Virus record (IMG/VR): IMGVR_UViG_3300031251_000380
Location: 1-27,064 of that record
Source: a virus
Length of the DNA stretch: 27,064 bases
Reading direction: 5' to 3' (one strand)
Shown: positions 317-26,755 of the stretch, piece by piece
Position numbering within the stretch: position 1 is the first letter of the stretch
Layout: each line of letters opens with the position of its first letter
Notes under the pieces: generated by a model
Databases searched by the model: none
What the model was told of the DNA's origin: nothing
Seen by the model: the letters and a program-made list of their open reading frames with translations, nothing else
Position numbers and translations under genes: made by a program

Positions 317-331
317 GGACACATAGACAAG
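317..331 (+). promoter_or_regulatory. Repeated late-promoter candidate, copy 1
   Basis: GGACACATAGACAAG, sharing 14 of 15 positions with copies at 7711 and 13279 (only position 6 varies). It lies 111 nt before the ATG of the 442 gene. If ATAG marks the start as in T7-family promoters, +1 would be G326. A hairpin (CTGAG/CTCAG with a 6-nt loop, 340-355) follows. The resemblance to SP6/K11 promoter cores (ACACTATAG) is loose and is inference. Confidence 0.55.
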
Positions 332-441
332 GATGTAAGCTGAGAATATCCTCAGACTACTCCCGGCTAAGAGGTCCTAGGTATTATCCGGTGAAAGGGC
401 GCTATATGCTTCCCTAGTACTAGGATAACAAAGGATATAAC
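326..441 (+). promoter_or_regulatory. Long structured 5' leader of the 442 gene
   Basis: Between the motif at 317-331 and the ATG at 442 there is no ORF but several inverted repeats: CTGAG/CTCAG (340-355); CCGG/CCGG (363-366 with 388-391); TCCTAG/CTAGGA (375-380 with 420-425); and TTATCC/GGATAA (384-389 with 423-428). The last two share the same right arm, so they exclude each other. The Shine-Dalgarno AAAGGA (430-435) sits just 3' of that arm. This looks like a leader for mRNA stability or translational control; the fold is not computed. Confidence 0.4.
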
Positions 442-1167
442 ATGGCAAATAGAAATTTCGCTAACTCTCGTATGTACACTGGGCACGTAATGCCCGTTCT
501 CTTAGATTGTAACTTCATCGTAGACTCTTCAAACGGTAATGGACTTGGGATTAGATCTCTCAAAGGACCATACATTCAGAACGTATTCATGCATACTTCT
601 GCAACTCCTGGACTTGGAAACTCAAATCCTTCAACTCCTGGAATCTCTGTAACAAATCCAAATCCAGCTTCTGGAACTATTGTAATCCAATTTCAAGACA
701 ACTATAGCCGACTTTACACAGGCGGAAACGCTATCGTATCTCCAGTAGGATCTTCTCTCAAAGTCGATGCTAGTGACGCTGCTCTTACCATCGGCGTCCC
801 TTATATTATCACCATCTTAGGAGATGCTACAGCAGCTGATTGGTTAGCTCTTGGAGTTCCAGCAGGTTTAACCCCCGCAGTTGGACTAGCTTTCATTGCT
901 AAAGCAACTGGATCAGGTGTCGCTTCTATATCTCGAGTAGCTCCAACCGCAGCTGCTGGATCAGCAGTTATGTCAATTGAAACCGTTGGAGACAGCGATC
1001 AAGCTTTAGCTCCCGCTCAACCTCTTAACTTTCCCCAAGGCTTCGGCGGACAAATTATTCTTCAATGCAGAAATTCATCCGGTGCTTTAGCAGCTCCTGC
1101 TGATGGATCTGTAATCAGCCTTAGCTTCCTATTAAGCAATAGTTCTGTTCAAATAGCTGGCGAGTAA
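442..1167 (+). CDS. Abundant virion structural protein (capsid-associated, decoration-like)
   Basis: A 241-aa protein with AAAGGA 6 nt before the ATG. It is rich in Gly, Ala, Ser and Pro with many alternating hydrophobic residues, so predicted mostly beta, and has no signal peptide or membrane helix. The N-terminal region (residues 1-50, with Asn-Arg-Asn-Phe, His-Val-Met-Pro and Gly-Leu-Gly-Ile-Arg-Ser segments) and the C-terminal Leu-Ser-Asn-Ser-Ser ending match a phage protein type that I have seen beside capsid genes in many uncharacterised phages; that is recollection, not a search. Its own candidate promoter and long leader upstream and strong intrinsic terminator downstream make it a one-gene transcription unit, as expected for a very abundant virion component. 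It could be a decoration/cement protein, a head fibre or, less likely given 241 aa, the major capsid protein. Confidence 0.7.
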   Translation: MANRNFANSRMYTGHVMPVLLDCNFIVDSSNGNGLGIRSLKGPYIQNVFMHTSATPGLGNSNPSTPGISVTNPNPASGTIVIQFQDNYSRLYTGGNAIVSPVGSSLKVDASDAALTIGVPYIITILGDATAADWLALGVPAGLTPAVGLAFIAKATGSGVASISRVAPTAAAGSAVMSIETVGDSDQALAPAQPLNFPQGFGGQIILQCRNSSGALAAPADGSVISLSFLLSNSSVQIAGE

Positions 1168-1186
1168 TCGTCTAGCGTTAATATAT

Positions 1187-1231
1187 TGGCTCGGTAGAAC
1201 GTATAAACAGTGGATCTACCGAGCCACTTTT
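1187..1231 (+). terminator. Strong intrinsic terminator after the 442 gene
   Basis: A perfect 12-bp inverted repeat (1187-1198 with 1215-1226: TGGCTCGGTAGA and its complement) encloses a 16-nt loop and is followed by C then TTTT (1228-1231). It lies 20 nt after the stop codon and immediately before the AGGAG (1232-1236) of the next gene. The position recalls the T7 T-phi terminator after the capsid gene. The T-tract is short, so partial read-through into the tail genes is likely. Confidence 0.85.
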
Positions 1232-1241
1232 AGGAGCTTAA

Positions 1242-2300
1242 ATGGCTGCACCTAGCACCCCAGTAAATTTTTACGTTCAGCAGGGCAATCGACAAGTCTT
1301 TTTGAGCTGGGATATTTCAGCAGGCGCAACTTCGTACTTAATACAACGAAGTTTAGATAATGTAAACTTCACTGCTTTAGCTACTGTCACTAACAACAGT
1401 TACTTAGATATAGCTGTAACAGCAGGTGTTCAATACTTCTATAACCTTGCGGCTTCTAATGGCACTGTTAGCCCTTATACACCTTCTCAAGGCATTATAC
1501 CTACCCCTACAGCTGAAATGAGCTTAGGTCAGTTAAGACTCATGTCTCAACAACGTGCGGATAGAGTTGGATCTAACTTTGTAACCCTACCTGAGTGGAA
1601 TACTTTCATTAATCAGGCCATGTACGAACTCTACGATCTACTAGTTACAGCAGACGAAGAATACTTCATAGCAACTCCCGCTCAATGGCCATCACAACCT
1701 AATAACAACAATCAAACCTATTTATATCCTCTCCCTGATGGTGTTACGTCTTTTAGCAACGGTATCAACGGAACTCCAGGATACATAGCACCACCTTTCT
1801 ATAAGATGAAGGGTGTTGATCTATCGCTTAATACGGCAAATAATGCTTGGGTAACTATAAACAAGTTTAATTTCATGGATAGAAACAAGTTTGTTTATCC
1901 TAATACTGCATCAACCATCTACGGTGTCTTTAACCTACAATATCGTGTCTTAGGAAACAACATAGAGCTAATCCCTACACCTTCGGCAGGTCAAAACCTA
2001 CGTATATGGTATATTCCTAGACTTCCTCAATTGTTATTAGATACAGATTTAACTTCCACCGGTATTTCAGGTTGGAATCAATATATCATCGTTAGAGCTG
2101 CTAAGTATGCACTAGATAAAGAAGAATCTGATACAACTAAATTAGATCAAGAACTTGTATTCCTTAAACAACGAATCGAAGAAACCGCAGATAATCGAGA
2201 TATGGGTCAACCTGATAGAGTTACAGACATAAGACAAAATGGTCAATGGGGCTCTATGAGTGGCGGCTATGGTAACGGAGGTCCAATTGGTGGTTTCTAG
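1242..2300 (+). CDS. Head-to-tail adaptor-like virion protein with N-terminal Fn3 domain
   Basis: 352 aa, AGGAG 5 nt before the ATG. Residues about 4-88 have the fibronectin type III pattern (Pro-x-x-Pro-x-x-Phe start, Leu-Ser-Trp-Asp core strand, Tyr-x-Ile-Gln-Arg-Ser, Tyr-Phe-Tyr-Asn-Leu strand). From residue 92 the protein changes to an alpha/beta region with an Asn-Gln-Ala-Met-Tyr-Glu-Leu-Tyr-Asp-Leu-Leu helix and a later Leu-Arg-Ile-Trp-Tyr-Ile-Pro strand. I associate this pattern with phage proteins coded next to head-tail connector genes. It is followed by a charged C-terminal helix (about 285-320) and a Gly-rich tail. Role inferred: virion adaptor between portal and tail, with Fn3 exposed for adhesion. 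The adaptor identity is moderate; the Fn3 call is good. Confidence 0.7.
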   Translation: MAAPSTPVNFYVQQGNRQVFLSWDISAGATSYLIQRSLDNVNFTALATVTNNSYLDIAVTAGVQYFYNLAASNGTVSPYTPSQGIIPTPTAEMSLGQLRLMSQQRADRVGSNFVTLPEWNTFINQAMYELYDLLVTADEEYFIATPAQWPSQPNNNNQTYLYPLPDGVTSFSNGINGTPGYIAPPFYKMKGVDLSLNTANNAWVTINKFNFMDRNKFVYPNTASTIYGVFNLQYRVLGNNIELIPTPSAGQNLRIWYIPRLPQLLLDTDLTSTGISGWNQYIIVRAAKYALDKEESDTTKLDQELVFLKQRIEETADNRDMGQPDRVTDIRQNGQWGSMSGGYGNGGPIGGF

Positions 2301-2301
2301 T

Positions 2302-2478
2302 ATGATTAAAAATATAATTTTCAGTTTCTTAATAGCTTGTTTAGCCTTGGTGTCTATACATCTTGGCTATTTCATAGGTCATGAAGATGGGTTTGAAATA
2401 GGTAAACGAGTGGGTGCCATAGAAGCAATGCTCCATAAAGGGGGATCTTGTTTCCTACATAATGGGAGAGCTGAATAA
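2302..2478 (+). CDS. Small membrane-anchored protein, 58 aa
   Basis: The ORF is open from 2260, but the better start is the ATG at 2302, one nucleotide after the TAG of the preceding gene; the longer version would overlap that gene's Gly-rich end. From 2302, residues 2-24 form a Lys-Asn leader followed by a hydrophobic helix (Ile, Phe, Leu, Ala, Cys, Val), suited to a membrane anchor or signal. The C-terminal half is soluble with a Gly-His-Glu-Asp-Gly-Phe segment. Its stop overlaps the ATG of the next gene (TAATG), indicating translational coupling. Function unknown; its position among virion genes does not by itself make it structural. Confidence 0.6.
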   Translation: MIKNIIFSFLIACLALVSIHLGYFIGHEDGFEIGKRVGAIEAMLHKGGSCFLHNGRAE

Positions 2479-2774
2479 TGAGTCTGCCGACCTTTAAAGA
2501 TCCGAATACGAATATGATGCTTATGCAGTCTTCGTGGTCTTCACAGCTTAACCCCGTTCTCGGTAATCCGTTGACTAACCCAACGTTACTGAAGAATGTG
2601 TCTTTAAAGACAGGTGCTAATGTCATTAATCATACTTTAGGGTCAACTCCTATCGGATGGATAGTGACAGATATTAATGCTGTAGCTTCAATATATAGGT
2701 CAGCAGCTTTCAACTCTTTAACTTTAACTTTAACAAGTTCGGCACCCTGCGTGGTGTCACTGGCGGTCTTTTAG
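2478..2774 (+). CDS. Small virion-associated protein, 98 aa, unknown
   Basis: Start and previous stop overlap by one base (TAATG). The protein has a Lys-x-Val-x-Leu-Lys-x-Gly-x-Asn-x-Ile-x-His-x-Leu-Gly core (residues about 39-55) followed by Pro-Ile-Gly-Trp-Ile-Val and a Ser/Thr-rich C-terminus ending in Val-Phe. I have seen similar roughly 100-residue proteins in tail modules of many phages, always without assigned function; this is recollection. The composition predicts a compact beta-sandwich. A role in the tail or fibre base is inferred only from the neighbours: the collar fibre follows after one base. Confidence 0.7.
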   Translation: MSLPTFKDPNTNMMLMQSSWSSQLNPVLGNPLTNPTLLKNVSLKTGANVINHTLGSTPIGWIVTDINAVASIYRSAAFNSLTLTLTSSAPCVVSLAVF

Positions 2775-2775
2775 T

Positions 2776-3897
2776 ATGTCATACACCTTAACTCCAAACA
2801 TGAATTTAGTGGTTCCAGGCGTAGGCACAGAAGCCGGACCACAGTATGCAACTGATATTAATAGCTCTTTAGCCATTATTGATGGTCATAACCACAGCAT
2901 AGGCAGCGGAGTTCAAATTACACCAAATGGATTGAACATCAATGCTTCATTACCAATGAATGGTAATTATTTAACCTCGACTGGATCTATAACATTTACG
3001 TCTCAAGTTACTCCTATTGCAGCTGCAAATAATCTATATGAAGTTGTTAACGATCTATGGTTTACCAATGGGTCTGGTTTACCCATACAGATTACAAATG
3101 GATCTGGAATCAATGTAACTTCTAGTGGTATAGCCTCAGGAACCGCCTCAGCATCCTTCGTTGGTGGAGTCTTAGTGGTAAATTCAGCCGCAAATACACC
3201 CGCCGCTATTCAAGGTGGACCAATTAGCATCGGTAACATCATCGCTAGTTCCAACTTTATTACTTTACAAGCTCCAAATGCGTTAGGATCAAATCAATCT
3301 ATAACTTTACCTCAAACTCCTTCTGTTGCTAGCGTCGTAACCATGGATACCAGCGGTAACATGGCGACTGCAAATGCTACTGGATTTTCATTACCCGCAG
3401 GCATGATGGCTCCTTATGGGGGGGCCGTGACACCTAGTGGATGGCTATTATGTAACGGTGCTGCAGTCTCTAGAACGGTTTATGCTAATTTATTTGCAGC
3501 TATTGGAACCGGGTGGGGATCTGGAGATGGATCTACTACATTTAATATACCGCAAACACAAGGGGTGTTCCTCCGAGGTGTCGATAACGGTCAAATGAAT
3601 GACCCCGACACTTTAACTCGTACGGCGATACAACCTGGCGGTAACTCTGGAGATAACGTGGGATCTTATCAGGGATGGCAAATTCAATCCCATAATCATA
3701 CTCTCTCCGATCCAACACATCATCATACCTACGCAGCTCCAAACGGGGGCTCTGGTGGGGGATCTGCTAGCGGAACAACAGGACAAGCACCTGCCACTAA
3801 TACTTCAAGCTCAGCAACTGGTATTACTATTGCTGCAACCGGTGGTAACCAAACCAATCCAAACAACGTTTATGTGAATTATATCATAAAGACTTAA
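2776..3897 (+). CDS. Tail fibre with C-terminal phage tail-collar domain
   Basis: 373 aa. Residues 1-50 (Leu-Thr-Pro-Asn-Met-Asn-Leu start, Asp-Gly-His-Asn-His near 36-41) form the attachment-type N-terminus, and residues 60-200 are a Ser/Thr/Asn-rich shaft. The collar domain begins near residue 208, with Gly-Met-Met-Ala-Pro-Tyr-Gly-Gly, Pro-Ser-Gly-Trp-Leu-Leu-Cys-Asn-Gly-Ala and Phe-Asn-Ile-Pro, the hallmarks of the family that includes T4 gp12. It is followed by a His cluster (SHNHTLSDPTHHHTY, about 304-318) typical of metal-binding short-fibre tips, then a Gly/Ser/Thr-rich tip. Likely trimeric receptor-binding protein. It lies between the adaptor-like gene and the nozzle-like gene and contains a G7 tract (3418-3424) at the start of the collar domain. 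Confidence 0.85.
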   Translation: MSYTLTPNMNLVVPGVGTEAGPQYATDINSSLAIIDGHNHSIGSGVQITPNGLNINASLPMNGNYLTSTGSITFTSQVTPIAAANNLYEVVNDLWFTNGSGLPIQITNGSGINVTSSGIASGTASASFVGGVLVVNSAANTPAAIQGGPISIGNIIASSNFITLQAPNALGSNQSITLPQTPSVASVVTMDTSGNMATANATGFSLPAGMMAPYGGAVTPSGWLLCNGAAVSRTVYANLFAAIGTGWGSGDGSTTFNIPQTQGVFLRGVDNGQMNDPDTLTRTAIQPGGNSGDNVGSYQGWQIQSHNHTLSDPTHHHTYAAPNGGSGGGSASGTTGQAPATNTSSSATGITIAATGGNQTNPNNVYVNYIIKT

Positions 3898-3904
3898 AGG
3901 ATTT

Positions 3905-6900
3905 ATGTTACAAAAACAAGCTATAGACATCAGCTTTGCTCAAGGTCTCGATTTAAAAACAGATCCATTCCGAGTTCAACCTGGAAAGTTTTTAGCATTG
4001 CAGAATTCTATCTTTGACAAAGGTGGACAATTACAAAAACGTAATGGTTTTAAAGCTTTATCTCCCTTACCAAGTCAATCAGCTTCATATTTAACCACCT
4101 TCAACGGTAATCTAACCGCTTTAGGTACAACTCTTGAATCGTATTCCTCAGGTAATGCAACTTGGATAGATAAAGGTCCCATTCTTCCGGTTGACTTAGC
4201 TACACTACCAGTAGTGAGAAATGGGTATTATCAGTCTCAAGCAGATTCAGTCGTAGCGGCGAATGGGTTAGCATGCGTGGCTTATACGGAGTATACCCCC
4301 GTAAGCGGAGTATTAACACCGACTCATAAATATATAGTTATTGATTCTATAACCGGACAAAATATAGTTGCCCCCACATTAATACCTAATGCAGATGCAA
4401 CCTATGGAACTCCAAGAGTATTTTTATTAGGAAATTACTTCATTATTCTATATACATCTCATACATCAGGCTACAATTTACAGTATATAGCTGTAGGCGT
4501 CACAACCCCCACTAATGTGAGTCTTCCTACGACAGTTGCAGTAAATTATACGCCAACTGCAGATCTTTCTTTTGATGGTACAGTCGTTAACGATACGTTA
4601 TATATTGGTTATAATACCACCTCTGGTGGACAATCAATAAAGGTTACTTCTTTATCACAATCCCTGATAATGAGTGCAACTCGTACCTATGCTGGTTCTA
4701 AAGCTACATCTATAAGCGTTACAGCCGATAATACAACACTACCAAATCCAATTATTTACATATCGTTTTATGATTCCGTATCTACCAACGGCCATGTATT
4801 AGCAGTTTACTTTGATTTATCTTTAGCTTTAGCCCCCACACAATTTATAACTGGCGAAGCGGTAGTTAATTTAACCTCTGTGGCTCAAAACGGTATTTGC
4901 ACTGTATTCTATGAAGTTGCTAATACATATAGCTATGGATCTAATTTAGAAACTAATTACGTAAAAACTAACACTATTACGTTCTTAGGTGTTGTCGGTA
5001 CATCTTCTATAATTCGAAGGTCTGTTGGATTAGCGTCTAAAGCCTTCTTATATAACTCCAATCCATATGTCTTAACAATCTATAGTTCAGACTATCAACC
5101 GACTTATTTTTTATTAGATAATGACGGAACTATAATATCTAAGTTAGCCTACTCAAACGGTGGACAGTATTATACAACAGGACTACCTAATACAACCTTA
5201 ATCGGAAACTCTGTAACACTACCTTATCTGTATAAAGATCAGATTCAAGCTGCTAATAAGACTCAAGGTATTGCGGATTCAGCTGGTGTCTATGCTCAAT
5301 TAGGCGTCAACCTAGTAACCTTTAACTTTCAACCTTCAGCAGTTGTAACTTCCGAAATAGGCAGTAATCTAAACTATACTGGTGGATACTTATCTATGTA
5401 CGATGGGGTTAAACCTGTTGAACAAGGGTTTTTCCTTTGGCCAGATAATATTGGTATATCCAGTACGACCCTATCTCCAGTTACAAGCGGTGGCACAACA
5501 GTTGTGGGATCTACTACAATCTCAGGTATTAGCACAACAGGTATTTATATAGGCGACGGTATATCTGGAACTGGTATACCCACAGGTGCATTAGTTGCTG
5601 AAATATTACCATCAACCATTATAATGGATATGCCAGCAACCGCCGCTGGTACGAATTCTTTCTCTTTTACAAGTTCTTTAACTGCCCAACAATATTTTTA
5701 TCAAGTTACGTATGAATGGACTGACAACCAAGGTAATTTGTTTAGAAGTGCCCCATCAATACCCGTCGGTATTGATGTATCAACCGATAATGCTGTAATC
5801 TTAAACATTCCCACACTTCGGCTTACTTATAAAACTAATGTAAGTATTGTAGTTTATAGATGGTCAACAGCACAGCAAAACTATTACCAAGTGACATCTA
5901 TAACTTCACCGTTATTAAATGACCCTACTGTGGATTCGATTACCTTCACAGATACAAATAGTGATGCAAATATCTTAGGTAATAACCTAATCTATACAAC
6001 TGGGGGGGTCATAGAGAATATCGCACCTCCAGCTACCGACTTAATAACCTTATTTAATAATAGATTGTGGTTATTAGATGCAGAAGATCGTAATCTATTG
6101 TGGTTCTCTAAGCAAGTCATAGAAGCAACACCAGTTGAGATGTCAGACTTGTTGACTCTTTATGTTGCTCCTACGACAGCCTCTGAAGGATCTACAGGTC
6201 CTATAACAGCCATATCCCCTATGGACGATAAACTAATTATATTTAAGCAAAATGCTTTAGGGTATATTAATGGTATTGGACCAGATAATACAGGGTCTAA
6301 CAGTCAATATTCTGACTTTAACTTAATTAATTCAGTTGTAGGATGTACTAATCAGAATAGTATCGTCTTCATGCCTCAAGGATTAATGTTCCAATCTAAC
6401 AAAGGAATTTGGTTAGTTGGACGTGACCTATCAACTCAATACATTGGTGCTCCTGTAGAGTCTTTAACCGCAGGAACAACAGTCCTTAGTGCTATCAATG
6501 TACCGGCTACAAATCAGGTTCGCTTTACCCTTACTAGCGGCATTACGTTGATATACGACTACTATTACTCTCAATGGGGCACATTTGTTAATGTACCTGC
6601 GATCTCTTCTACTATCTACCAAGAACTACACACTTTCATAAATAGTTATGGCCAAGTTTTTCAAGAATCAGTAGGTTCTTATCTAGATGGTTCTAATCCT
6701 GTTCTTATGAGTTTCACCACTGGGTGGATGAATTTAGCAGGTGTACAAGGCTTTGAACGTTTTTATCAGATGTATTTATTAGGTCAATACCTATCTCCAT
6801 TTAACCTTAATGTCCAAATTGCGTATGATTATAACCCTTCGCCAATACAAGCAACACTTGTATCACCTAGTCAAACTCCTGTAAGTTGGGGTAGTGATGC

Positions 6901-7150
6901 TCAATGGGGTTCAGGTTCTACTTGGGGCAGCCAAGGCAGCGGTGGTTGGGAAGGTCAAGCTAATGTGTTTGAAGCTAGAGTATTCCCCCAACGACAAAAG
7001 TGTGAAGCTTTCCAGATTACAATCAATGAAGTGTATAATCCAGCAGCCGGCGGAGTTGCAGGTGCAGGCTTAACTCTTACAGGTCTTAATCTTGTTGTTG
7101 GCATGAAACGTGGCTTTAGAACTAGCAAAGCTTCTCGTAACTTCGGCTAA
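3905..7150 (+). CDS. Tail nozzle/hub-type protein (P22 gp10 / T7 gp12-like), 1081 aa
   Basis: AAAGGA precedes the ATG. The N-terminus (Ile-Asp-x-x-x-x-Gln-Gly-Leu-Asp-Leu-Lys-Thr-Asp, then Gly-Gly-x-Leu-x-Lys-Arg-Asn-Gly-Phe by residue 48) is the pattern I associate with the nozzle proteins that close the short tail. The body is beta-rich throughout. An internal insert at about 525-590 has repeated Gly-Thr-Gly-Ile-Pro type turns, an Fn3-like stretch follows at about 595-690, and a Trp/Gly-rich segment (WGSDAQWGSGSTWGS, about 998-1012) precedes a Gln-Arg-Gln-Lys-Cys-Glu-Ala-Phe strand near the end. It is larger than P22 gp10 (about 470 aa) and T7 gp12 (about 790 aa), consistent with inserted domains. 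G7 tract at 6002-6008. Family assignment is from pattern, not a search. Confidence 0.7.
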   Translation: MLQKQAIDISFAQGLDLKTDPFRVQPGKFLALQNSIFDKGGQLQKRNGFKALSPLPSQSASYLTTFNGNLTALGTTLESYSSGNATWIDKGPILPVDLATLPVVRNGYYQSQADSVVAANGLACVAYTEYTPVSGVLTPTHKYIVIDSITGQNIVAPTLIPNADATYGTPRVFLLGNYFIILYTSHTSGYNLQYIAVGVTTPTNVSLPTTVAVNYTPTADLSFDGTVVNDTLYIGYNTTSGGQSIKVTSLSQSLIMSATRTYAGSKATSISVTADNTTLPNPIIYISFYDSVSTNGHVLAVYFDLSLALAPTQFITGEAVVNLTSVAQNGICTVFYEVANTYSYGSNLETNYVKTNTITFLGVVGTSSIIRRSVGLASKAFLYNSNPYVLTIYSSDYQPTYFLLDNDGTIISKLAYSNGGQYYTTGLPNTTLIGNSVTLPYLYKDQIQAANKTQGIADSAGVYAQLGVNLVTFNFQPSAVVTSEIGSNLNYTGGYLSMYDGVKPVEQGFFLWPDNIGISSTTLSPVTSGGTTVVGSTTISGISTTGIYIGDGISGTGIPTGALVAEILPSTIIMDMPATAAGTNSFSFTSSLTAQQYFYQVTYEWTDNQGNLFRSAPSIPVGIDVSTDNAVILNIPTLRLTYKTNVSIVVYRWSTAQQNYYQVTSITSPLLNDPTVDSITFTDTNSDANILGNNLIYTTGGVIENIAPPATDLITLFNNRLWLLDAEDRNLLWFSKQVIEATPVEMSDLLTLYVAPTTASEGSTGPITAISPMDDKLIIFKQNALGYINGIGPDNTGSNSQYSDFNLINSVVGCTNQNSIVFMPQGLMFQSNKGIWLVGRDLSTQYIGAPVESLTAGTTVLSAINVPATNQVRFTLTSGITLIYDYYYSQWGTFVNVPAISSTIYQELHTFINSYGQVFQESVGSYLDGSNPVLMSFTTGWMNLAGVQGFERFYQMYLLGQYLSPFNLNVQIAYDYNPSPIQATLVSPSQTPVSWGSDAQWGSGSTWGSQGSGGWEGQANVFEARVFPQRQKCEAFQITINEVYNPAAGGVAGAGLTLTGLNLVVGMKRGFRTSKASRNFG

Positions 7151-7181
7151 AATTGACACAAAAACTAGATCGTGGAGACTT

Positions 7182-7322
7182 ATGGTAAATTTAATTGACA
7201 CCAAGTTCCAACTTGCGCTAACATATCCTCAGTGGATTCTTTATTTAGAAGATGATTCTAATGTTGAGCAACTACTACAGTATTTGTTAGAAATCCGTAG
7301 TGAACAAGGAGAAATATGCTAG
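7182..7322 (+). CDS. Small acidic protein, 46 aa, unknown
   Basis: The frame is open from 7110, but the first 24 codons would overlap the end of the nozzle gene. ATG at 7182 is preceded by GGAG (7174-7177) and gives a clean start 31 nt after the previous stop. The product has a Trp-Ile-Leu-Tyr-Leu-Glu-Asp-Asp segment and an amphipathic Leu/Glu/Gln-rich helix. Its last codons contain the AAGGAG for the next gene, and its stop (TAG in ATGCTAG) overlaps that gene's start, so it is translationally coupled to the GNAT-like gene. No recognised family. Confidence 0.55.
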   Translation: MVNLIDTKFQLALTYPQWILYLEDDSNVEQLLQYLLEIRSEQGEIC

Positions 7323-7711
7323 TTATACCTATTGAAAGTCATGTTGGTCCTCAAGTTCGTGGAATGATTCAACTTTTAGAATCAAGAAATATGTCACCTG
7401 GTTTGATTAATGACCTACCTGTATTCGGTCTAATTGCATACGACAATGGCGAACCTGTAGCTGCTGGTTTTCTTCGTGATATTGAAGGACCGTATGCAAT
7501 GCTTGATAGTTACATAACTAATCCTAATGCTCCTGCTAAAGTAAGAAATAGAGCATTAAACTTGATTACAGATAAGTTAATCAAGGTTGCAAGATTAAAC
7601 GATAAAGTTAAACTACTTGCATTTACTGCAGATCTTCATACTCATTGGAGATCTTTAGAACATGGATTTACGTACTTACCCCATACTTTCTCAGCAATAA
7701 CACTTAAATAG
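7316..7711 (+). CDS. GNAT-like acetyltransferase-fold protein, 131 aa
   Basis: AAGGAG precedes the ATG. The order of segments fits a small GNAT fold: an N-terminal beta-alpha unit, a Phe-Gly-Leu-Ile-Ala-Tyr-Asp-Asn-Gly-Glu-Pro-Val-Ala-Ala-Gly-Phe hairpin (about 37-52), a strand ending Leu-Asp-Ser-Tyr-Ile-Thr (about 62-67), a long helix beginning at Pro-Ala-Lys-Val-Arg-Asn-Arg-Ala, a central strand and a Gly-Phe-Thr-Tyr-Leu-Pro-His C-terminus. The acetyl-CoA pyrophosphate loop (Arg/Gln-x-x-Gly-x-Gly/Ala) is not canonical here (Lys-Val-Arg-Asn-Arg-Ala), so catalysis is uncertain. Related proteins occur among virion genes of other phages, where the role is unclear. It lies directly before the ejection-protein block. 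Confidence 0.6.
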   Translation: MLVIPIESHVGPQVRGMIQLLESRNMSPGLINDLPVFGLIAYDNGEPVAAGFLRDIEGPYAMLDSYITNPNAPAKVRNRALNLITDKLIKVARLNDKVKLLAFTADLHTHWRSLEHGFTYLPHTFSAITLK

Positions 7712-7725
7712 GACATATAGACAAG
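7711..7725 (+). promoter_or_regulatory. Repeated late-promoter candidate, copy 2
   Basis: GGACATATAGACAAG begins exactly where the GNAT-like gene ends (its TAG is 7709-7711) and lies 45 nt before the ATG of the first ejection-protein gene. A 5-bp hairpin, AGACG-ATTATA-CGTCT (7731-7746), follows. Both match the arrangement at 317 and 13279. This is one of the few intergenic gaps on the plus strand, which supports a regulatory role. Confidence 0.6.
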
Positions 7726-7730
7726 ATTAG

Positions 7731-7746
7731 AGACGATTATACGTCT
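7731..7746 (+). promoter_or_regulatory. 5' hairpin downstream of promoter candidate copy 2
   Basis: AGACG and CGTCT enclose a 6-nt loop; flanking AT bases may lengthen the stem. It would lie at about +12 to +27 of the proposed transcript, before the AGGAG of the 7771 gene. There is no T-run, so it is not a terminator. Confidence 0.45.
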
Positions 7747-7770
7747 TAAACCTTATCTATAGGAGCGTCC

Positions 7771-8868
7771 ATGCCATTCCTAGCCCCCCTAATACCTGCT
7801 ATTGCAGGCGGAATAGCTTCTGCTGCTGCAGGTGCTGGAGTAAATGCATTAACTAAAGGTGCTCAATCTACTCCAGGCCAAGTTAATCTTAACGATGATG
7901 CAACTCAAGCTGGGATGGGAAATCAAGCTCAGCTTGCTAATGCACTACAAAGTGCAGGCGGCGTATCTAACGAGCAATCAGTTTACAATCAACAACAACA
8001 ATTAGCTAACCAACTTGGTCAAATGTCTCAAGGCGCCGGTCCTAATCCTGCTTTAGCTCAATTGGCTCAAACCACAGGGCAAAATGTTTCTAACCAAGCA
8101 GCATTAATGGCTGGACAACGTGGAGCAGGCTCGAATGCAGGTCTTATAGCAAGACAGGCGGGACAACAAGGCGCTGCAACTGAGCAACAAGCAGTAGGAC
8201 AAGCTGCAACTCTTAGAGCTCAACAGCAATTAAATGCAATCGGTGCGTTACAAGCTCAACAAGGTCAATTAGCCGGATTATCAACTACTCAAGTTAATCA
8301 ACAACAAGCAGCCGCAAATGCTCAGACTCAATCTGCCTTAGCTCAGCAACAACAGCAATTACAACAAGCTCAAGGTGTTAATGATATAGCCCAGAAGCAA
8401 GGTCAACAACAAGCAGGTATTATTGGTCAAATCGGCGGTGGTATTGCATCAGGTCTAGGAACGGCAGTTACTAGCGCTCTTAATTCTCCTTCTACACCAG
8501 CTCCAGCACCGTCAGCCGGCGCTAACTACGCTAATCAATTAGGTCTATCTGCACCTCAGACACTTGCTGAAGGCGGACAAGTACAAACAGGCTTTGATTC
8601 TATTAAAAAAGAAAACTACAAAGGCAAATCTAAAATGGGACGTATGATGTATGCCGGTGGTGGTCAAATCGACATGAAGGTCGGTGGACATGTCCCTGGT
8701 AAAGCTAAGGTCGGGGGGGCTAAAGATAGTTACTCTAACGATACAGTTCCTGCAATCCTCAGTCCAGGGGAGATAGTATTACCAAGATCAGTAACTCAAT
8801 CCGCTAATCCTACAGAAGCTGCAGCTAAATTTGTCGCCTCTATCAAATCAAAGAAAAAGGGGAAATAG
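7771..8868 (+). CDS. Internal/ejection-type virion protein, Gln/Ala/Gly-rich, 365 aa
   Basis: AGGAG precedes the ATG. Residues 1-30 are hydrophobic and small-residue rich (Pro-Phe-Leu-Ala-Pro, Gly-Gly-Ile-Ala-Ser-Ala-Ala-Ala-Gly-Ala), suited to membrane insertion. Residues 50-215 are a Gln/Ala-rich, probably helical region including a Gly-Leu-Ile-Ala-Arg-Gln-Ala segment near 124-130. A Gly-rich hydrophobic stretch follows (216-236), then Ala/Pro linkers and Gly-Gly motifs (AEGGQ 266-270; AGGGQ 295-299). The C-terminus carries the widespread phage motif NDTVPAILSPGEIVLPRS (323-340). Large Gln/Ala-rich proteins placed here are typically injected with the genome, as in P22 (gp7, gp16, gp20) and T7 (gp14-16). 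Role inferred from composition and position. G7 tract at 8713-8719. Confidence 0.65.
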   Translation: MPFLAPLIPAIAGGIASAAAGAGVNALTKGAQSTPGQVNLNDDATQAGMGNQAQLANALQSAGGVSNEQSVYNQQQQLANQLGQMSQGAGPNPALAQLAQTTGQNVSNQAALMAGQRGAGSNAGLIARQAGQQGAATEQQAVGQAATLRAQQQLNAIGALQAQQGQLAGLSTTQVNQQQAAANAQTQSALAQQQQQLQQAQGVNDIAQKQGQQQAGIIGQIGGGIASGLGTAVTSALNSPSTPAPAPSAGANYANQLGLSAPQTLAEGGQVQTGFDSIKKENYKGKSKMGRMMYAGGGQIDMKVGGHVPGKAKVGGAKDSYSNDTVPAILSPGEIVLPRSVTQSANPTEAAAKFVASIKSKKKGK

Positions 8869-8870
8869 CC

Positions 8871-10826
8871 GTGAAGGTTAAAGTAGATCTTTCAAAGTTT
8901 AAACTTAAACATAAAAATGAAACTCATGCTACGTTAGTGCACCCAGACGGCCATGAGGTTAAATTATCAGTTAAAGCTCTTCATCCTATGAACCGAAAGA
9001 ATTTAGATGGTTTAAAGATGGCGGATGGTGGAACAGCTTACGATCCTTTTAAACATCCAGAAGGTCAGGCTCCAAAAGAACCAAGTCATTATTCTAAAGC
9101 AGATGAGAGTGTTGCAGCCGAAGATGATAAGCCTAAAGCTCATAAAGCTCCAGCAGACTCTACAGGATTTACTAGTTCAGCTGAGAAACATCTCGACACA
9201 GATAAAACTAGTAAGCTCAAAGCGTTTGCAAGCGGTGGTGAAATTAACCCTAAACTAGAGCAATCAAGAGTAGATCTATCTAGACTTCAACCTCAAATGA
9301 AACCTGTAGGTGGTGTAAGAGCTGCTGAAGGCGGAGAACTAGAAGTAGAAGAACTTGAACATCCAGTAGCTAAAAATCCTGTAGATTACGAACCAGTTCA
9401 TCAACCAAAAGTAGAGAAATTAGAACATCCCGAACCTAAACATCCTATAAAGTATGAGAAGATGGCTGAAGGTGGAGAAGCAGAACAGTCTTCAGATCAA
9501 CAACCTATTGTTATTAACAATATGCCCCCAGCACCTCAATTAAGTCCAGCTGAAATGGATCAAATGGGGATGCAAGGAATGCCATCTCAACAACCTGCCC
9601 AGCCTAAAGATCAGGGTATGGCAGCTCAACCACAACAACCTCAACAGCCTCAACAGCCTAAAGCTGATAATATGCCTACAACTATGGGTGGTTATCAACA
9701 ACAAGCTGCAGGTATTCAGGGACAAGCTAAGGCCGAATCTAAAGGTCAAGCTGAACAAGCTAAAGTAATGGCTGAACAAGCTGGTGCAGTTAATCAACTA
9801 ATGACTGATCACCAAGCTAAAGTTCAAGAGATTGAAACTGAACGAAAAGCATTGATGCAAGATTATCTAGATGGACATATTGATCCAAATAGATTTATGG
9901 GATCAAAAGATACTACAGGCCGTATCCTTACAGGCATTGGACTTGCATTGGGTGGTCTTGGAGCAGGACTTAACGGTGGATCCAATCAAGCATTAGACTT
10001 CTTAAACAAGCAAATCGATAGAGATATTGATGCTCAAAAAGCTGATTTAGGTAAGAAACATACATTATTAAGTATGAATATGGATCGTCTGAAGGATGAG
10101 AACGCCGCTGTTCAAGTCACCAGAATGCAGATGCAAGATCTAATGTCAGCTAAGATTGGTCAATCAGCAGCTAAAGCGCAAAGTGCTATAGCTAAGTCTC
10201 GAGGTCAACAATTATTAGGTCAATTACAACAACAAACAGCTCCTGTAGTTCAACAAATGGCTGTTCGTGATATGCTGAGTAGTGCTAAACCAGAACAGTT
10301 GCAAAAGATGGATCCTTCACAACTTGTAACCTCAATAGTTCCTCCAGATAAACAAAAAGAAGTTACACACGAAATAGCATTAGCTCAAAATGCTAAAATC
10401 AATAGTGATAATATCTTAAAGCATTTTGATGAAGCTTCTAAAGAGAACACAGTTGCAGGTCGTGTAAGTCGATTAGGCTTCACCCCCCCATCTATTCTCT
10501 CTATGAGATCTATGATGTTACCTCTAATTCATGACTTAGAAGGTCGAGTTAACGAATTCGAACAAAAAACTACTTCAGATTTAGAACCTAAACCAGGTGA
10601 TAAAGCATCCACCATTTCGGCAAAGAAAAAAGCCTTAGTTGAATTTTTAGCTCAAAAGTCTTCCGCTCCAATGGCTAAAAGCTTTGGATTAGACTTAGAA
10701 AAATTTGGCTCTACAGCTAAACCTGGAACATTGACACCTGAGCAAAATCAATACGTTCAATGGGCAAAAGCCAATCCCAACGACCCGCGGTCTAAATTAG
10801 TACTTAAAAAACTTAACGTAGAATAG
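8871..10826 (+). CDS. Internal/ejection-type virion protein, 651 aa
   Basis: The start is GTG at 8871, with AAGGGG (8858-8863) upstream and only two bases after the previous stop. Segments in order: a basic N-terminal beta region (1-45); a disordered region with four Gly-Gly motifs (KMADGG 49-54, FASGGE 119-124, AAEGGE 151-156, KMAEGGEA 197-204) and a tandem LEHP repeat (159-165 and 181-187); a Gln/Pro-rich stretch (about 208-265); helices (280-340); a Gly-rich hydrophobic segment (351-370) able to enter a membrane; and a long alpha region starting Phe-Leu-Asn-Lys-Gln-Ile-Asp-Arg-Asp-Ile-Asp-Ala-Gln-Lys. The last block is recurrent in phage proteins beside tail genes. Likely ejected with DNA; could also be a scaffold-like core protein. 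Contains a C7 tract (10483-10489). Confidence 0.65.
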   Translation: MKVKVDLSKFKLKHKNETHATLVHPDGHEVKLSVKALHPMNRKNLDGLKMADGGTAYDPFKHPEGQAPKEPSHYSKADESVAAEDDKPKAHKAPADSTGFTSSAEKHLDTDKTSKLKAFASGGEINPKLEQSRVDLSRLQPQMKPVGGVRAAEGGELEVEELEHPVAKNPVDYEPVHQPKVEKLEHPEPKHPIKYEKMAEGGEAEQSSDQQPIVINNMPPAPQLSPAEMDQMGMQGMPSQQPAQPKDQGMAAQPQQPQQPQQPKADNMPTTMGGYQQQAAGIQGQAKAESKGQAEQAKVMAEQAGAVNQLMTDHQAKVQEIETERKALMQDYLDGHIDPNRFMGSKDTTGRILTGIGLALGGLGAGLNGGSNQALDFLNKQIDRDIDAQKADLGKKHTLLSMNMDRLKDENAAVQVTRMQMQDLMSAKIGQSAAKAQSAIAKSRGQQLLGQLQQQTAPVVQQMAVRDMLSSAKPEQLQKMDPSQLVTSIVPPDKQKEVTHEIALAQNAKINSDNILKHFDEASKENTVAGRVSRLGFTPPSILSMRSMMLPLIHDLEGRVNEFEQKTTSDLEPKPGDKASTISAKKKALVEFLAQKSSAPMAKSFGLDLEKFGSTAKPGTLTPEQNQYVQWAKANPNDPRSKLVLKKLNVE

Positions 10827-10834
10827 GAATCGGT

Positions 10835-13288
10835 ATGTCCGAGAATACACCTCCTGGACTTGATGAATTCTTAGCTAGTCCAGCCTCTCAAACTGAAGCA
10901 TCGCCTATGGCACCTAAATCAGGTGAACCCGCAGGTTTAGACGCATTCATAGCTCCTGAGGTTCAAGAGGAAAAGTACGGTTCTTTAGGGCAACAAGCTA
11001 TAACAGCTGCAGAAAGCGCTGGAAAGGGCCTTGCTGGCCCGGTAGCACCTCTATTAGAAGAAGCTGCAGGCGTTAATCCAGAAGATATTAGAGCTAGAGC
11101 AGAAGAGAACCCAGCGACAGCATTTGCAGGAGAGGCTGCAGGGTTTGTAGCTCCTGCTTTGGCATCATTTGGTTCAAGTGCTGCAGCTAAAGTAGGATTA
11201 ACAGGTCTTGCAAAAGCTATTCCTACTATATCAAAGTTTACGCAATTAGGCGCTTTAGAAAAGATTAGTGCTAAATTAGCTCCCATAGCCGGTGAAACCT
11301 TAGCCTCTAAAATTGGTTCAGCCGCCGCTAAAGGTGCTATTGAGAACATGTTATTAACTGGTAGTGATGAAGTGTCCAGAATGATACTTCACGATCCAGA
11401 ACAATCTGTACAAAGTGCAGTTGCTGATTTAGGACTCTCCGCTGTATTAGGGGGGGCCTTAGGCGGTGGATTAAAAGGTGCTGGTCATCTTTGGGATGCA
11501 ACTGTAGGTAGCAAAGCTGCTCAATTAGCTGCTGACTTTAAAGGTCGTATTAATGAACATATCCACAATCCTGATCCTGTAGCTGCTATGGGAGAGGAAC
11601 TCGCAACATTGCATAAGAATGTTACTGGGTTAGCGGATGAAGTATATGGTGCATCAGGCCTTAAAGCTAAAGATATTGAAGCTTCAGTACCTCACATGCA
11701 TGAAGGTATTGTAGGACAAATTAATGAAGTTTCCGATAAAGTACAGAAAACATTAGATAAATTAAGTAAAGATGATCATGCTGGGTTGTTAGAAGATGTA
11801 TTCACCAAGTACAAAGAAGCAGTAACAACTGATGAACCTGCTAAGATATTCAATGCTACGCAAGAGTTAAAACAACAACTGCAAGAGTGGGGTCGATTTA
11901 ATAAGGATATAGTTCCACTTAAAGAACGACCTTTTAGAAATGCAGCTAAAGATTTAGCTGCTAATCTGAAAACAAGTTTAGAAGATACTAAGATATGGGG
12001 AAAAGCTGCAGAACGACAATCTTCAATTAATAAAGCTTTTACAGAATACTTACCTGCGCTTAGAGATTTTGAATCTACATTCATGAATAAAGTTGGTGAA
12101 GAAAAGGTTATTAATCCTGGTAAAATCAATACTTATCTGAATCAGTTAGGTAAAGCTAACGCTGAGATTAAACAGGCTAAACTACAAAACTTTATTGATG
12201 CATCAAAGAAGTATCAAAAGGTCATTTCTGACACACATATGAACTTGGGTATGGACGCTCCTGAAATTCATAGTCCTTTAAATGTGACGATGTCCTCTTT
12301 AGAAGAAAAGACTCTCGGCTCTAAACTTGCTGACATGTTCATCCAAAAAGGTTTAACTGATGTCGGTAGTGAAGCTTTAGGAGCTACTATTGGTGGAAGT
12401 ATCGGTCACGCCGCAGGCATTCATAGCGGAGTAGGCGCCTTATTAGGAGCTAAAGCTTTAGGACCTTTCTTTAAATCTATATTACCCGCACTAGCTAAGG
12501 GGTTTATGGATAAACCGGCTGCCTCGATGGGCGTTAAAGCAGCCATTGATCATACAGCTGCAGTAGCTAAAGGTAATGAATTAATTAACAAAGCTACTAA
12601 GAATATCTTTAAACTCGGCGTTGCTGTATTACCAGAGCATGCTAAACCTACAGATAAAGATAGAGAAAAACTTAATAAAAATCTTAGATCTATTCAAGGC
12701 AATCCGGAGCCTATGTTTACAAAGGATGATAAATTGGCACATTATATGCCTCAACAATCATCTGCTCAAGATCAAATGTTCGGTAGTGTTATAAACTATT
12801 TAAATGGAATTAGAACAGATTTAGACCGAAAATCTCCTTTAGATAGTAAACCTGTACCATCCTCTACTCAAAAAGCTGCTTTTAATAACGCTTTAGATAT
12901 AGCTCAACAACCCTTGATTGTACTCGATAAGATCAAGAATGGTACTTTAACGGCTAAAGACATCGAACATATCGGTAGTATGTATCCACAACTTTATAAT
13001 GGTTTAAAAACAAAGTTAATGGAACAGATAACAGAAACCGTTAAAAAACAAGAAGTTATCCCTTATAGAACTAGAATTGGCTTATCCATGTTCTTAGCTG
13101 AACCATTAGATAGTACAATGAATCCTATGTCTATAATGGCAGCACAGACAATTCCTAAGCAAAATCAACCACAACAAGCTCAACAGCCCAAAAAAGGTAC
13201 TAAATCGTCTCCAGCTCTCCAAAAGATGCCAAAATCATACCAAACGTCTAATCAAAGTGTTGAAACGAGACAACAAAGGGACAAATAG
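10835..13288 (+). CDS. Large internal/ejection-type virion protein, 817 aa
   Basis: AGGAA lies before the ATG, 8 nt after the previous stop. The N-terminus has a short repeat, GLDEFLA (8-14) and GLDAFIA (34-40). Residues 50-230 are Ala/Gly-rich amphipathic to hydrophobic helices (for example AVLGGALGGGLKGAG near 203-217). A long charged alpha-helical region of coiled-coil type follows (about 230-500), then another Gly/Ala hydrophobic region (about 510-560) and a Lys/Gln-rich C-terminus. No lytic transglycosylase or peptidase motif is apparent. It is the third and largest member of the ejection-type block, comparable in position to T7 gp16 or P22 gp16/gp20. Its last codons overlap the promoter candidate at 13279. 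G7 tract at 11450-11456. Confidence 0.65.
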   Translation: MSENTPPGLDEFLASPASQTEASPMAPKSGEPAGLDAFIAPEVQEEKYGSLGQQAITAAESAGKGLAGPVAPLLEEAAGVNPEDIRARAEENPATAFAGEAAGFVAPALASFGSSAAAKVGLTGLAKAIPTISKFTQLGALEKISAKLAPIAGETLASKIGSAAAKGAIENMLLTGSDEVSRMILHDPEQSVQSAVADLGLSAVLGGALGGGLKGAGHLWDATVGSKAAQLAADFKGRINEHIHNPDPVAAMGEELATLHKNVTGLADEVYGASGLKAKDIEASVPHMHEGIVGQINEVSDKVQKTLDKLSKDDHAGLLEDVFTKYKEAVTTDEPAKIFNATQELKQQLQEWGRFNKDIVPLKERPFRNAAKDLAANLKTSLEDTKIWGKAAERQSSINKAFTEYLPALRDFESTFMNKVGEEKVINPGKINTYLNQLGKANAEIKQAKLQNFIDASKKYQKVISDTHMNLGMDAPEIHSPLNVTMSSLEEKTLGSKLADMFIQKGLTDVGSEALGATIGGSIGHAAGIHSGVGALLGAKALGPFFKSILPALAKGFMDKPAASMGVKAAIDHTAAVAKGNELINKATKNIFKLGVAVLPEHAKPTDKDREKLNKNLRSIQGNPEPMFTKDDKLAHYMPQQSSAQDQMFGSVINYLNGIRTDLDRKSPLDSKPVPSSTQKAAFNNALDIAQQPLIVLDKIKNGTLTAKDIEHIGSMYPQLYNGLKTKLMEQITETVKKQEVIPYRTRIGLSMFLAEPLDSTMNPMSIMAAQTIPKQNQPQQAQQPKKGTKSSPALQKMPKSYQTSNQSVETRQQRDK

Positions 13289-13293
13289 ACAAG
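13279..13293 (+). promoter_or_regulatory. Repeated late-promoter candidate, copy 3
   Basis: GGACAAATAGACAAG overlaps the end of the 817-aa gene (its TAG is within ATAG) and lies 44 nt before the ATG of the first appendage gene. A 5-bp GACGG/CCGTC hairpin follows at 13305-13319. Same arrangement as copies 1 and 2. It would drive the whole appendage array. Confidence 0.6.
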
Positions 13294-13304
13294 TATGAAG
13301 CCTA

Positions 13305-13337: not shown

Positions 13338-13727
13338 ATGGCCAGAAAGAATACTTTAGTAACTCAGATAGCCGCTAATCAAAGTCTATCTAGTTCCTTT
13401 ATAAGCGCACCCACTGTAGTGCGTTACCTCGATAACTGTAGTTATCAAATCAACATTAACACCACTAATTCAACTGGAACCTTTGCAGTTCAAGTCAGCA
13501 ATGATTATTACGTTAATGAAGGAAATGATAGTGTTGTAGTTAATCCTGGAAACTGGACATCTTTAACCTTAGCTGGTGGCACTCCTTTTGCAAATGCAGC
13601 AAATGATACAATCGTCATCAACCTTAATCAATTACCTTTTTACGCTGTTCGTATAGCTTATACATCTACAATCGCTGGAACGGGAACTTGCTCTATCTAT
13701 ATTACAGATAAGCAAATCGGAGGATAA
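13338..13727 (+). CDS. Small beta-sandwich appendage protein, 129 aa
   Basis: GGAGG precedes the ATG. Predicted all-beta: Ser-Asn-Asp-Tyr-Tyr strand (about 54-58), Asn-Trp-Thr (about 72-74), a hydrophobic Ile-Val-Ile-Asn-Leu strand and an Arg-Ile-Ala-Tyr-Thr-Ser ... Ala-Gly-Thr-Gly-Thr end. The gene at 17260 has the same order of landmarks (Ser-Asn-Asp, Asn-Trp-Thr, Arg-Val-Val-Phe-Thr-Ser, Val-Ala-Gly-Ser), so the two are paralogues. It is first in the appendage array, directly behind promoter candidate copy 3. It probably forms part of a tail or head fibre; receptor contact is inferred only from context. No exact family assigned. Confidence 0.6.
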   Translation: MARKNTLVTQIAANQSLSSSFISAPTVVRYLDNCSYQININTTNSTGTFAVQVSNDYYVNEGNDSVVVNPGNWTSLTLAGGTPFANAANDTIVINLNQLPFYAVRIAYTSTIAGTGTCSIYITDKQIGG

Positions 13728-22957: not shown

Positions 22958-23128
22958 TATAATTCCAGATTTTTCAGGTTTTGGATTAAGCTTACAAGCA
23001 CCACAACTACAACACTTTAGATACAGTGGATTAGTTGGATGCTCATACATCAAAGCTGCATGACATTCAAAACAAACCATCTCTAGATAGGTTGGTTCAA
23101 TGGGCGATTCTTTAGCTTTTCGTTCCAT
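22907..23128 (-). CDS. Cys-rich zinc-finger-like protein, 73 aa
   Basis: A strong GGAGGAGG lies 10 nt before the ATG at 23128, although the gene begins 46 nt inside the end of the HNH gene. Cys residues at 19 and 22 (CFEC) and a second cluster CCSCGAC (39-45) give enough ligands for a zinc-binding knuckle. The rest is polar with an acidic C-terminus. It is the last gene of the minus-strand operon and overlaps the plus-strand holin-like gene by 51 nt at its 3' end. Function unknown; a nucleic-acid-binding or protein-binding role is only a guess. Confidence 0.6.
   Translation of the reverse strand: MERKAKESPIEPTYLEMVCFECHAALMYEHPTNPLYLKCCSCGACKLNPKPEKSGIILMPELRDNLDDGEKSE
22929..22943. repeat. 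Inverted repeat in the convergent overlap
   Basis: TCGAGA-TTA-TCTCGA, a perfect 6-bp stem with a 3-nt loop, lies inside the 51-nt region coding on both strands. There is no T-run on either side, so it is not a classical intrinsic terminator, but it may stall or stabilise RNA ends where the two transcript sets meet. Confidence 0.4.
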
Positions 23129-23442
23129 ATCTTTGAATCCTCCTCCACATTTGGATTGTAGCTTTTAAACGACTGTAAATGTCCAAATACAAGGTGACAG
23201 TCTCTCCCAGAGTGCTCACATAAAGTAATTAAATTGTTAAGATCTAATTCTAACTCTGGATGGCTATGAAATGGCTTTTTATGGTGTACTTGTAATTTAT
23301 CCTTACCACCGCAAACTGCGCAAACACCGTAACTATTAAGGTGTTCTTTACGCACAGTGTGCCAATGGTTTGATCTGATATTCGTTACAGTAGTCTTTCC
23401 TTTTACAACGTCGTGAATATGTCTTAATAGCCTGTGTATCAT
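23083..23442 (-). CDS. HNH endonuclease, 119 aa
   Basis: The ATG overlaps the stop of the 217-aa gene (ATGA). The core shows the HNH pattern with zinc ligands: CAVC (41-44), LQVHHKKPF (50-58, His pair 53-54), Asn 69-70 then ITLC (72-75), and CHLVFGH (82-88). Trp-His-Thr-Val-Arg-Lys-Glu-His near 27-34 is typical of small phage HNH proteins. Such enzymes nick or cut DNA with a metal ion; in tailed phages they may be homing enzymes or may assist packaging beside terminase. Here no terminase is near, and the gene lies in the operon carrying helicase and lysozyme, so a free-standing homing-type nuclease or DNA-processing role is possible. Confidence 0.85.
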   Translation of the reverse strand: MIHRLLRHIHDVVKGKTTVTNIRSNHWHTVRKEHLNSYGVCAVCGGKDKLQVHHKKPFHSHPELELDLNNLITLCEHSGRDCHLVFGHLQSFKSYNPNVEEDSKIWNEKLKNRPLNQPI

Positions 23443-24092
23443 ATGTCAATCCAATATGTTGCATAGGGATTACTATAACTGGGCAAATAATATTGTGCTG
23501 CCACAGCTTTCATAACCTCAGGGGTTCCGTATATTTTAGTTTGTCGCCAATGCCAAAATTTACCTGATAAATTAGCAATCCAAGATTTACGTTTTGTAGC
23601 CTGCCATTGTAACCAATTTAAACGTCTAGAATCAGTATCTGAAATTGGACTACCAATACATGATGTCCCAATAACTAAGGCATTATATATGGCAAATGGA
23701 AACATCAAGAATGATGGTACACCGCGGGCTAATAAATAAGCGTAAACAAGTTGTGGATAGCGCCACATAGGAAAGACTAAGTGAAAATTGACAGCAATAT
23801 CAAATTCTGCATAGCCGGCAAGTACACCGATGTGGTTATCGATTACATCTGGAGATGGATCACCTGGTGCTCTATGTAAACAATGATCTGTCCCAATACA
23901 AGATGATATAAGCTGAGCGTAACGAGTGATGTCTTCATCTGTTAAACCCTCATTACGGTGTAGCATTATATAATATTCAGAGGTAAACATAGTTCCATTA
24001 TCAGAACCACGAAGAGTTCCCGGAGTGATAGGTCTTGGAGCCAATAACCCATTACCATCTATAAATGGTTGAAAGTCACTCTTAATATTCAT
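23439..24092 (-). CDS. Conserved phage protein of unknown function, 217 aa
   Basis: Start and stop overlap neighbours by four bases on both sides (ATGA), so it is fully coupled between the lysozyme and HNH genes. The N-terminus has Arg-Gly-Ser-Asp-Asn-Gly-Thr-Met-Phe-Thr-Ser-Glu-Tyr-Tyr (28-41), followed by HRAPGDPSPDVIDNHIGVLA (about 73-92), a hydrophobic middle, Asp-Thr-Asp-Ser-Arg-Arg-Leu-Asn-Trp-Leu near 152-161, and a C-terminal Met-Lys-Ala-Val-Ala-Ala-Gln-Tyr-Tyr segment ending Tyr-Trp-Ile-Asp-Ile. I recognise this as a recurring uncharacterised phage protein, by memory only. There is no signal peptide. The hydrophobic segment around 119-145 might be membrane-associated or a buried core. 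Many aromatic residues could suit carbohydrate binding, but this is speculation. Confidence 0.6.
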   Translation of the reverse strand: MNIKSDFQPFIDGNGLLAPRPITPGTLRGSDNGTMFTSEYYIMLHRNEGLTDEDITRYAQLISSCIGTDHCLHRAPGDPSPDVIDNHIGVLAGYAEFDIAVNFHLVFPMWRYPQLVYAYLLARGVPSFLMFPFAIYNALVIGTSCIGSPISDTDSRRLNWLQWQATKRKSWIANLSGKFWHWRQTKIYGTPEVMKAVAAQYYLPSYSNPYATYWIDI

Positions 24093-24526: not shown

Positions 24527-24569
24527 AACTACTCCAAAAAGATAAAGCCTTCCTTGGCATCATCTTAAA

Positions 24570-25427: not shown

Positions 25428-25437
25428 GCTTTTTCTC

Positions 25438-26754: not shown

Positions 26755-26755
26755 A

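Follow-up and report, generated by a model that had tools for sequence, protein, structure and literature searches.

What directs transcription of the late gene blocks in the DNA of IMG/VR record IMGVR_UViG_3300031251_000380 is the question raised by a 15-nucleotide (nt) element, GGACA(C/T/A)ATAGACAAG, repeated ahead of three of them. The window analysed is the entire record, 27,064 bp, which is classed linear and is a genome fragment of about half a genome from an uncultured, podovirus-like phage. It contains a run of genes from the virion gene starting at 442 (gene 442) to the tail, ejection and appendage genes, and an oppositely transcribed set which includes a lysozyme and a helicase. The element is best read as a compact late promoter, used by the host core RNA polymerase under a phage factor for which a small protein, c14, is the leading candidate; on sequence evidence, we give this reading as a whole a probability of about 0.55.

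Three copies of a 15-nt element in the window

The element shows exactly three copies, at 317-331, 7711-7725 and 13279-13293, all on the + strand. An earlier note on this DNA had described three near-identical copies and no other full copy, and an exact scan of both strands gives the same result. A blind search for three 15-mers sharing pairwise at least 14 of 15 positions returns this triple, plus repeats within a Gly-rich protein of 758 aa, and an equivalent triple is absent from 12 first-order Markov simulations of the window. The sole further match in the window with three or fewer mismatches is located at 8662-8676, within the ejection-protein open reading frame (ORF) 7771-8868, and not in the lysozyme gene (24089-24526), where the nearest partial match had been placed. 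Both downstream copies meet stop codons, as had been noticed: copy 2 starts on the base that ends the stop codon of ORF 7316-7711; copy 3 includes the entire stop codon (13286-13288) of ORF 10835-13288. Comparison with relatives extends the conserved unit to about 22 nt, and the three copies, labelled by the sites described in the next section, are:

315-336 (core 317-331), + strand: late promoter-like element, copy 1, site B, ahead of virion gene 442; exact match, extended by the -20 to +2 footprint of the relatives; predicted start about G335.
7709-7731 (core 7711-7725), + strand: late promoter-like element, copy 2, site C, ahead of ejection-protein gene 7771; exact match; predicted start about A7729/G7730.
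13277-13299 (core 13279-13293), + strand: late promoter-like element, copy 3, site D, ahead of appendage gene 13338; exact match; predicted start about G13297.

Genome-specific elements in related phages

Related IMG/VR loci were collected by protein searches (24, then 80), and the relatives overall number at least 446. The comparison set contains 57 related IMG/VR contigs assembled from fetched pieces, which may be incomplete and are designated by G numbers, used as handles in this analysis. The relatives fall into two size classes, of about 35-38 kb and 50-59 kb, and show a conserved gene order: DNA polymerase (in the 50-59 kb clade), c19, c14, c17, terminase c9, c16, c15, c13, portal c5, scaffold c6, major capsid c7, c4 (gene 442 of the window), c1, c11, c3, c2, c21/c22, c8, c12, c10 and c20/c25. 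The names portal, scaffold and capsid were read from the sequences and are not all backed by family matches. The left end of the window falls between c7 and c4.

Searched for as an exact motif, the 15-mer is essentially without copies in the relatives, and this first seemed to speak against a function, until genome-specific elements emerged from comparison of the leaders within each genome. Many relatives show their own, nearly invariant element at site A (after the terminase), site B (before c4), site C (after c2) and site D (after c10), and the sites orthologous to C and D of the window hold each genome's own element. Examples are AATGAACGAATAGCCTTCTATAG, with four copies in G049, AAGACTnnATACCGT, with four copies in G011, GTCTCAATTACACA, present at A, B and D in G019, and GGCACTATATCC, present at several sites in G062. 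In 22 of the 53 genomes tested, the leader at site B and those at A/C/D have a k-mer in common, with z >= 3 relative to shuffles. Scans of 36 genomes give 95 matches in leaders and 59 elsewhere; 34 of these 59 stem from three low-information motifs and several others are further true-looking sites. In a test of 82 gene-edge windows, controlled with foreign elements, strong enrichment is found at the A, B, C and D positions, a result which is partly circular because the elements were defined there. Several relatives also contain hairpins resembling intrinsic terminators directly upstream of B. In G031 (57736), G040 (1562) and G053 (49712), further sites similar to the own element lie in the coding sequence of c38 (SbcC-like), about 400 nt from its end.

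Concerted turnover between close relatives

Three loci close to the window show how the element changes. L082 and L084, whose gene 1242 is 91% identical, and L085 (82%) retain the gene 442 leader from ATGTAAGCTGAG on, and the element that precedes it is unrelated to that of the window. The kept leader begins at ATGTAAGC (position 333), immediately after the element. In the close relatives, GGTCAATCCGCTAAAT or AGATCAGCGCAGCAATT replaces the element at B, and the same new element is found at site C and also at D. The element is replaced wholesale, and at several sites together, between closely related phages.

A copy of the element inside the scaffold gene

In most of the genomes, an additional copy lies within the coding sequence of scaffold gene c6. 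For 26 of 34 genomes, the own element has its best match at a distance of 700-900 nt from the end of this gene, where 28% is expected from the elements of other genomes (binomial p 8e-9, a value that assumes independent genomes, whereas these are related). The mean rank of the own element is 0.19 in c6 and 0.43-0.56 in nine control genes. The elements of other genomes in the same genes served as control, and the c6 site played no part in defining the elements. Copies are found, for example, at 37336 in G026, 28501 in G019, 15921 in G055, 42312 in G039 and 47258 in G049. The peptide encoded at this position varies between genomes in step with the element, which favours selection on the DNA.

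Footprint and predicted transcription start

The footprint was anchored on start sites predicted from sequence. Identity within genomes is about 0.27 between -50 and -22, reaches 0.7-0.97 at most positions between -20 and -6 and is about 0.6-0.75 from -5 to +2, with background values beyond. Between genomes, constancy is greatest for C at -15 (0.61), C at -7 (0.72) and A at -6 (0.62); next come T/A, T at -1 and the purine at +1, with the values at -1 and +1 influenced by the choice of anchor. The segment from -5 to -1 is T/A-rich and the purine at +1 is G in a proportion of 0.62. At site A, just 29-36 nt often separate the element from the start codon, and the Shine-Dalgarno sequence immediately follows the element; therefore, the transcript cannot begin beyond the element's end. 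This spacing and the leader stem at site B leave no room for a far-downstream start. Transcription would begin at the purine following the T-rich end, at about 335, 7729/7730 and 13297, which is about 9 nt downstream of the positions proposed before (326, 7720 and 13288).

The same positions, the same strand, the genome-specific sequence, the concerted turnover, the compact footprint and the copy in coding sequence strongly support a late promoter. The sequences show the element confined to the starts of late blocks plus one site within the scaffold gene. It is very probably a phage-specific late promoter, compact and start-proximal (about 22 bp, from about -20 to +2), that lies ahead of each late gene block. 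The relatives thus strongly support this part of the proposal in the earlier note; its other part, a single-subunit RNA polymerase gene elsewhere in the genome, finds no support, as described below.

Search for the protein that recognises the element

The T7-type RNA polymerase predicted before was searched for with PF00940 (single-subunit RNA polymerase), which matches none of 46 related contigs, several of them of 54-59 kb, and matches the phage T7 control with an E-value of 9.9e-110. The small, complete-looking relatives (35-38 kb) show no suitably large protein outside the structural set. The ejection proteins were considered as hidden polymerases and rejected, the large ones being without match to solved RNA polymerases. 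In the closest long relative, the families listed (best 25 per library) include a DNA polymerase A, a primase-helicase, a RecA/UvsX-like protein, an SbcC-like protein, an endonuclease VII and an Rrf2-type regulator, and there is no RNA polymerase among these best 25 Pfam and PHROG matches. Since the phage seems to have no RNA polymerase of its own, the host core RNA polymerase would transcribe from the element, under a phage-encoded specificity factor.

The candidate for this factor, c14, is a conserved, predicted helix-turn-helix protein of about 130 aa. It is present in all second-set contigs of 35 kb or more and in those first-set contigs that include the region (in G006 and G015 by reading the frame). 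Its gene is always upstream of terminase c9, adjoining c19 and c17/c50, and is outside the window. The C-terminal half is helix-turn-helix-like, with weak matches to HTH_23, sigma-70 region 4 and LuxR-type models, and the matches of PF08281 (sigma-70 region 4), with E-values of 5e-6 to 2e-3, coincide with c14 in G002, G019, G055 and G060. AlphaFold models are confident in this half, and structure searches give DNA-binding folds with weak scores, phage and cellular sigma factors among them; the best viral match, also weak, is a phage sigma factor. Sigma region 2 is not recognised in c14, and the RinA/ArpU family is not among the c14 matches listed in PHROGs, Pfam and NCBIfam. A suggestive case of covariation is found in three genomes: G033 and G040 have TATCGCA within the element in common and a c14 similarity of 0.61, whereas G031 has another element and a c14 similarity to them of 0.27-0.31, yet its portal (0.87) and the flanking c19 and c17 (0.63-0.76) are similar. 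The protein c14, which resembles sigma-70 region 4, may reprogram the host RNA polymerase, and if the element is a promoter, c14 is on balance its likely recogniser. In two genomes of the small clade, G004 (696) and G019 (16736), a copy of the own element, located where the c14 domain ends or just past that point, immediately precedes the packaging genes.

Several points weigh against a late promoter recognised through c14. Some relatives yield a weak element or no clear element in the automatic search, and the lists of elements at A-D were partly curated by eye, which makes the tests at these sites partly circular. Every family match of c14 falls short of the curated cut-offs, and its fold matches are weak. 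Over all pairs, rank-matrix tests that compare c14 identity with element similarity are not significant, also with a better alignment of the elements. Furthermore, the footprint is nearer to the start than the region that sigma region 4 normally binds.

Alternative explanations

The promoter could be as described and the factor another phage protein or a multi-protein complex, such as c19 or an unrecognised early protein. This is unlikely: the covariation tests fail to single out c14, the DNA-binding fold of c14 is a predicted one, and c19 and c17 belong to the same conserved gene cluster, but no other conserved helix-turn-helix protein was found near the terminase, the sub-threshold similarity to sigma region 4 falls on c14 in the four best cases, and c19 is detected in 35 genomes compared with 43 for c14.

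Less probable still is a host promoter read by host sigma factors (sigma-70 or alternative), with elements that differ as the hosts differ. Without a phage RNA polymerase, that of the host is required anyway, and the hosts, none of which was found through a search for prophages in GTDB genomes, may be diverse. However, there is no conservation at -35, identity is at background upstream of -22, no -10 hexamer is apparent in common between genomes, and phages 91% identical in the next protein carry unrelated elements. Matches to the sigma-70 consensus (TTGACA, 16-18 nt, TATAAT) are no commoner than in shuffles, with 30 found in the region and 37 expected; copies 2 and 3 show none and copy 1 is overlapped by one 9/12 match, and the sigma-70 explanation was rejected as it has no supporting sites.

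That the element is not a promoter, but a recombination linker at module boundaries, an RNA-processing site or an antitermination site, is very improbable. Its position at gene-block boundaries, adjoining structured leaders, would fit such a role, but it has a single direction, always just ahead of a gene start, its conservation ends at +2, one copy lies within a coding gene that has no boundary there, and the concerted turnover in close relatives is unexpected for a homology linker. The least probable alternative, already largely refuted, is a T7-type promoter whose single-subunit RNA polymerase gene would lie in another part of the genome. The window covers only about half a genome, and the compact footprint, A-C-A at -8 to -6, T-rich -5 to -1 and predicted purine at +1 resemble the T7/SP6/K11 class; against this reading stand the negative results in the 46 relatives against the positive T7 control, in the closest long relative (which has a DNA polymerase), among the ejection proteins and in the 35-38 kb relatives.

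Leader of gene 442 and gene content of the window

The region between the element and gene 442 contains a second putative signal:

335-441, + strand: 5' leader RNA of gene 442, structured; pairing is possible between ATATCCT (346-352) and AGGATAT (432-438), the latter containing the Shine-Dalgarno sequence.

A long-range stem is found in all 18 large-clade leaders. A simple longest-helix search recovers the pairing of the 5' part (UCCUC-type) and the Shine-Dalgarno region in 17 of these 18 (another helix was chosen in G025), and the pairing is individually significant in about half. A table of 19 leaders, anchored on the invariant CCTC and its GAGG-type partner, shows compensatory changes: the core-adjacent pair is T-A (11), A-T (4) or C-G (2), with 17 of 18 paired, and the two next inner pairs are more variable and paired in 11 of 19. 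No Rfam family matches this leader. The covarying leader, which would sequester the Shine-Dalgarno sequence, is a candidate for a separate translational control.

The genes that open the three blocks are:

442-1167, + strand: virion protein, cluster c4, opens block B; orthologue at the same place in 22 of the first 24 relatives.
7771-8868, + strand: ejection-type protein, cluster c8, opens block C; orthologue in 21 of the first 24 relatives.
13338-13727, + strand: small appendage- or decoration-type protein, cluster c25/c20, opens block D; orthologue in 14 of the first 24 relatives.

The gene of the Gly-rich 758-aa protein (14397-16673) shows near-exact internal DNA repeats at 15375, 16128 and 16464. 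The - strand cluster at 23083-26781 contains genes encoding an HNH endonuclease, an unknown protein, a lysozyme, a trypsin-like protease with a lipoprotein-type signal and a UvsW-like helicase. The window proteins have no match in cultured phages, save distant generic similarity to helicases or terminases, and none was found in cultured phages for the tail gene, the large tail protein, the capsid protein or c14.

Comparison with known systems and significance

The nearest precedent, by analogy, is the pair of phages phiEco32 and 7-11. Their sigma factors, phi32_gp36 and SaPh711_gp47, show 15% identity, and they have unlike late promoters at equivalent genome positions, since the specificity factors that direct the host core RNA polymerase diverged; the late promoters of phiEco32 consist of a single compact element without a -35, with starts 6-8 bp downstream (PMC8948821). 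A repeated late-specific element without a -35 at the start of the late blocks is also found here. In that case there are two phages, recognisable sigma factors and experimental proof, whereas here there are dozens of genomes with unrelated elements, known from sequence alone, and a footprint of about 22 bp, a much smaller, barely sigma-like candidate factor and an intragenic copy in the scaffold gene.

T7-type promoters extend from about -17 to +6, with A/T-rich -4 to -1 and G at +1. The likeness to T7, SP6 and K11 (Autographiviridae) suggested before holds for architecture only: the element is compact and start-proximal, with a T/A-rich stretch before a predicted purine start and lineage-specific recognition bases, upstream of late blocks, but no such polymerase gene was found in the relatives, the recognition part begins near -20, and the elements of close relatives differ far more. 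The RinA/ArpU-type late activators of Gram-positive siphophages are small DNA-binding proteins encoded just upstream of the terminase genes that switch on the late genes. The gene of c14, a small predicted DNA-binding protein, has the same location; however, RinA/ArpU is not among the family matches listed for c14, there are several late promoters instead of one, and the site is start-proximal. HTVC010P-type pelagiphages, such as Polarivirus skadi, are small podoviruses that encode neither an RNA nor a DNA polymerase and are said to rely on those of the host, and only sigma-70 promoters are reported for them, with no switching late element described (PMC10504331). The terminase of the phage group of the window is distantly similar to theirs, but the other proteins of the group match no cultured phage.

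Promoter turnover between phages was previously seen in a few cultured pairs, and here dozens of switches are found at fixed positions in a whole uncultured group, one of them forced through protein-coding sequence. Dozens of phages with a different signal at the same places suggest that the 'password' of the late genes keeps changing. We tentatively propose, as a possibility short of even odds, that in hundreds of uncultured, podovirus-like phages a miniature sigma-region-4-like protein of about 130 aa redirects the host RNA polymerase to the compact promoter close to the start, and that protein and promoter switch as a pair too fast for near relatives to share a promoter, the scaffold coding sequence being forced along. 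The predicted small specificity factor could provide orthogonal promoters without a dedicated polymerase, and the group raises a testable question: how a specificity factor changes along with all its promoters while keeping its function.

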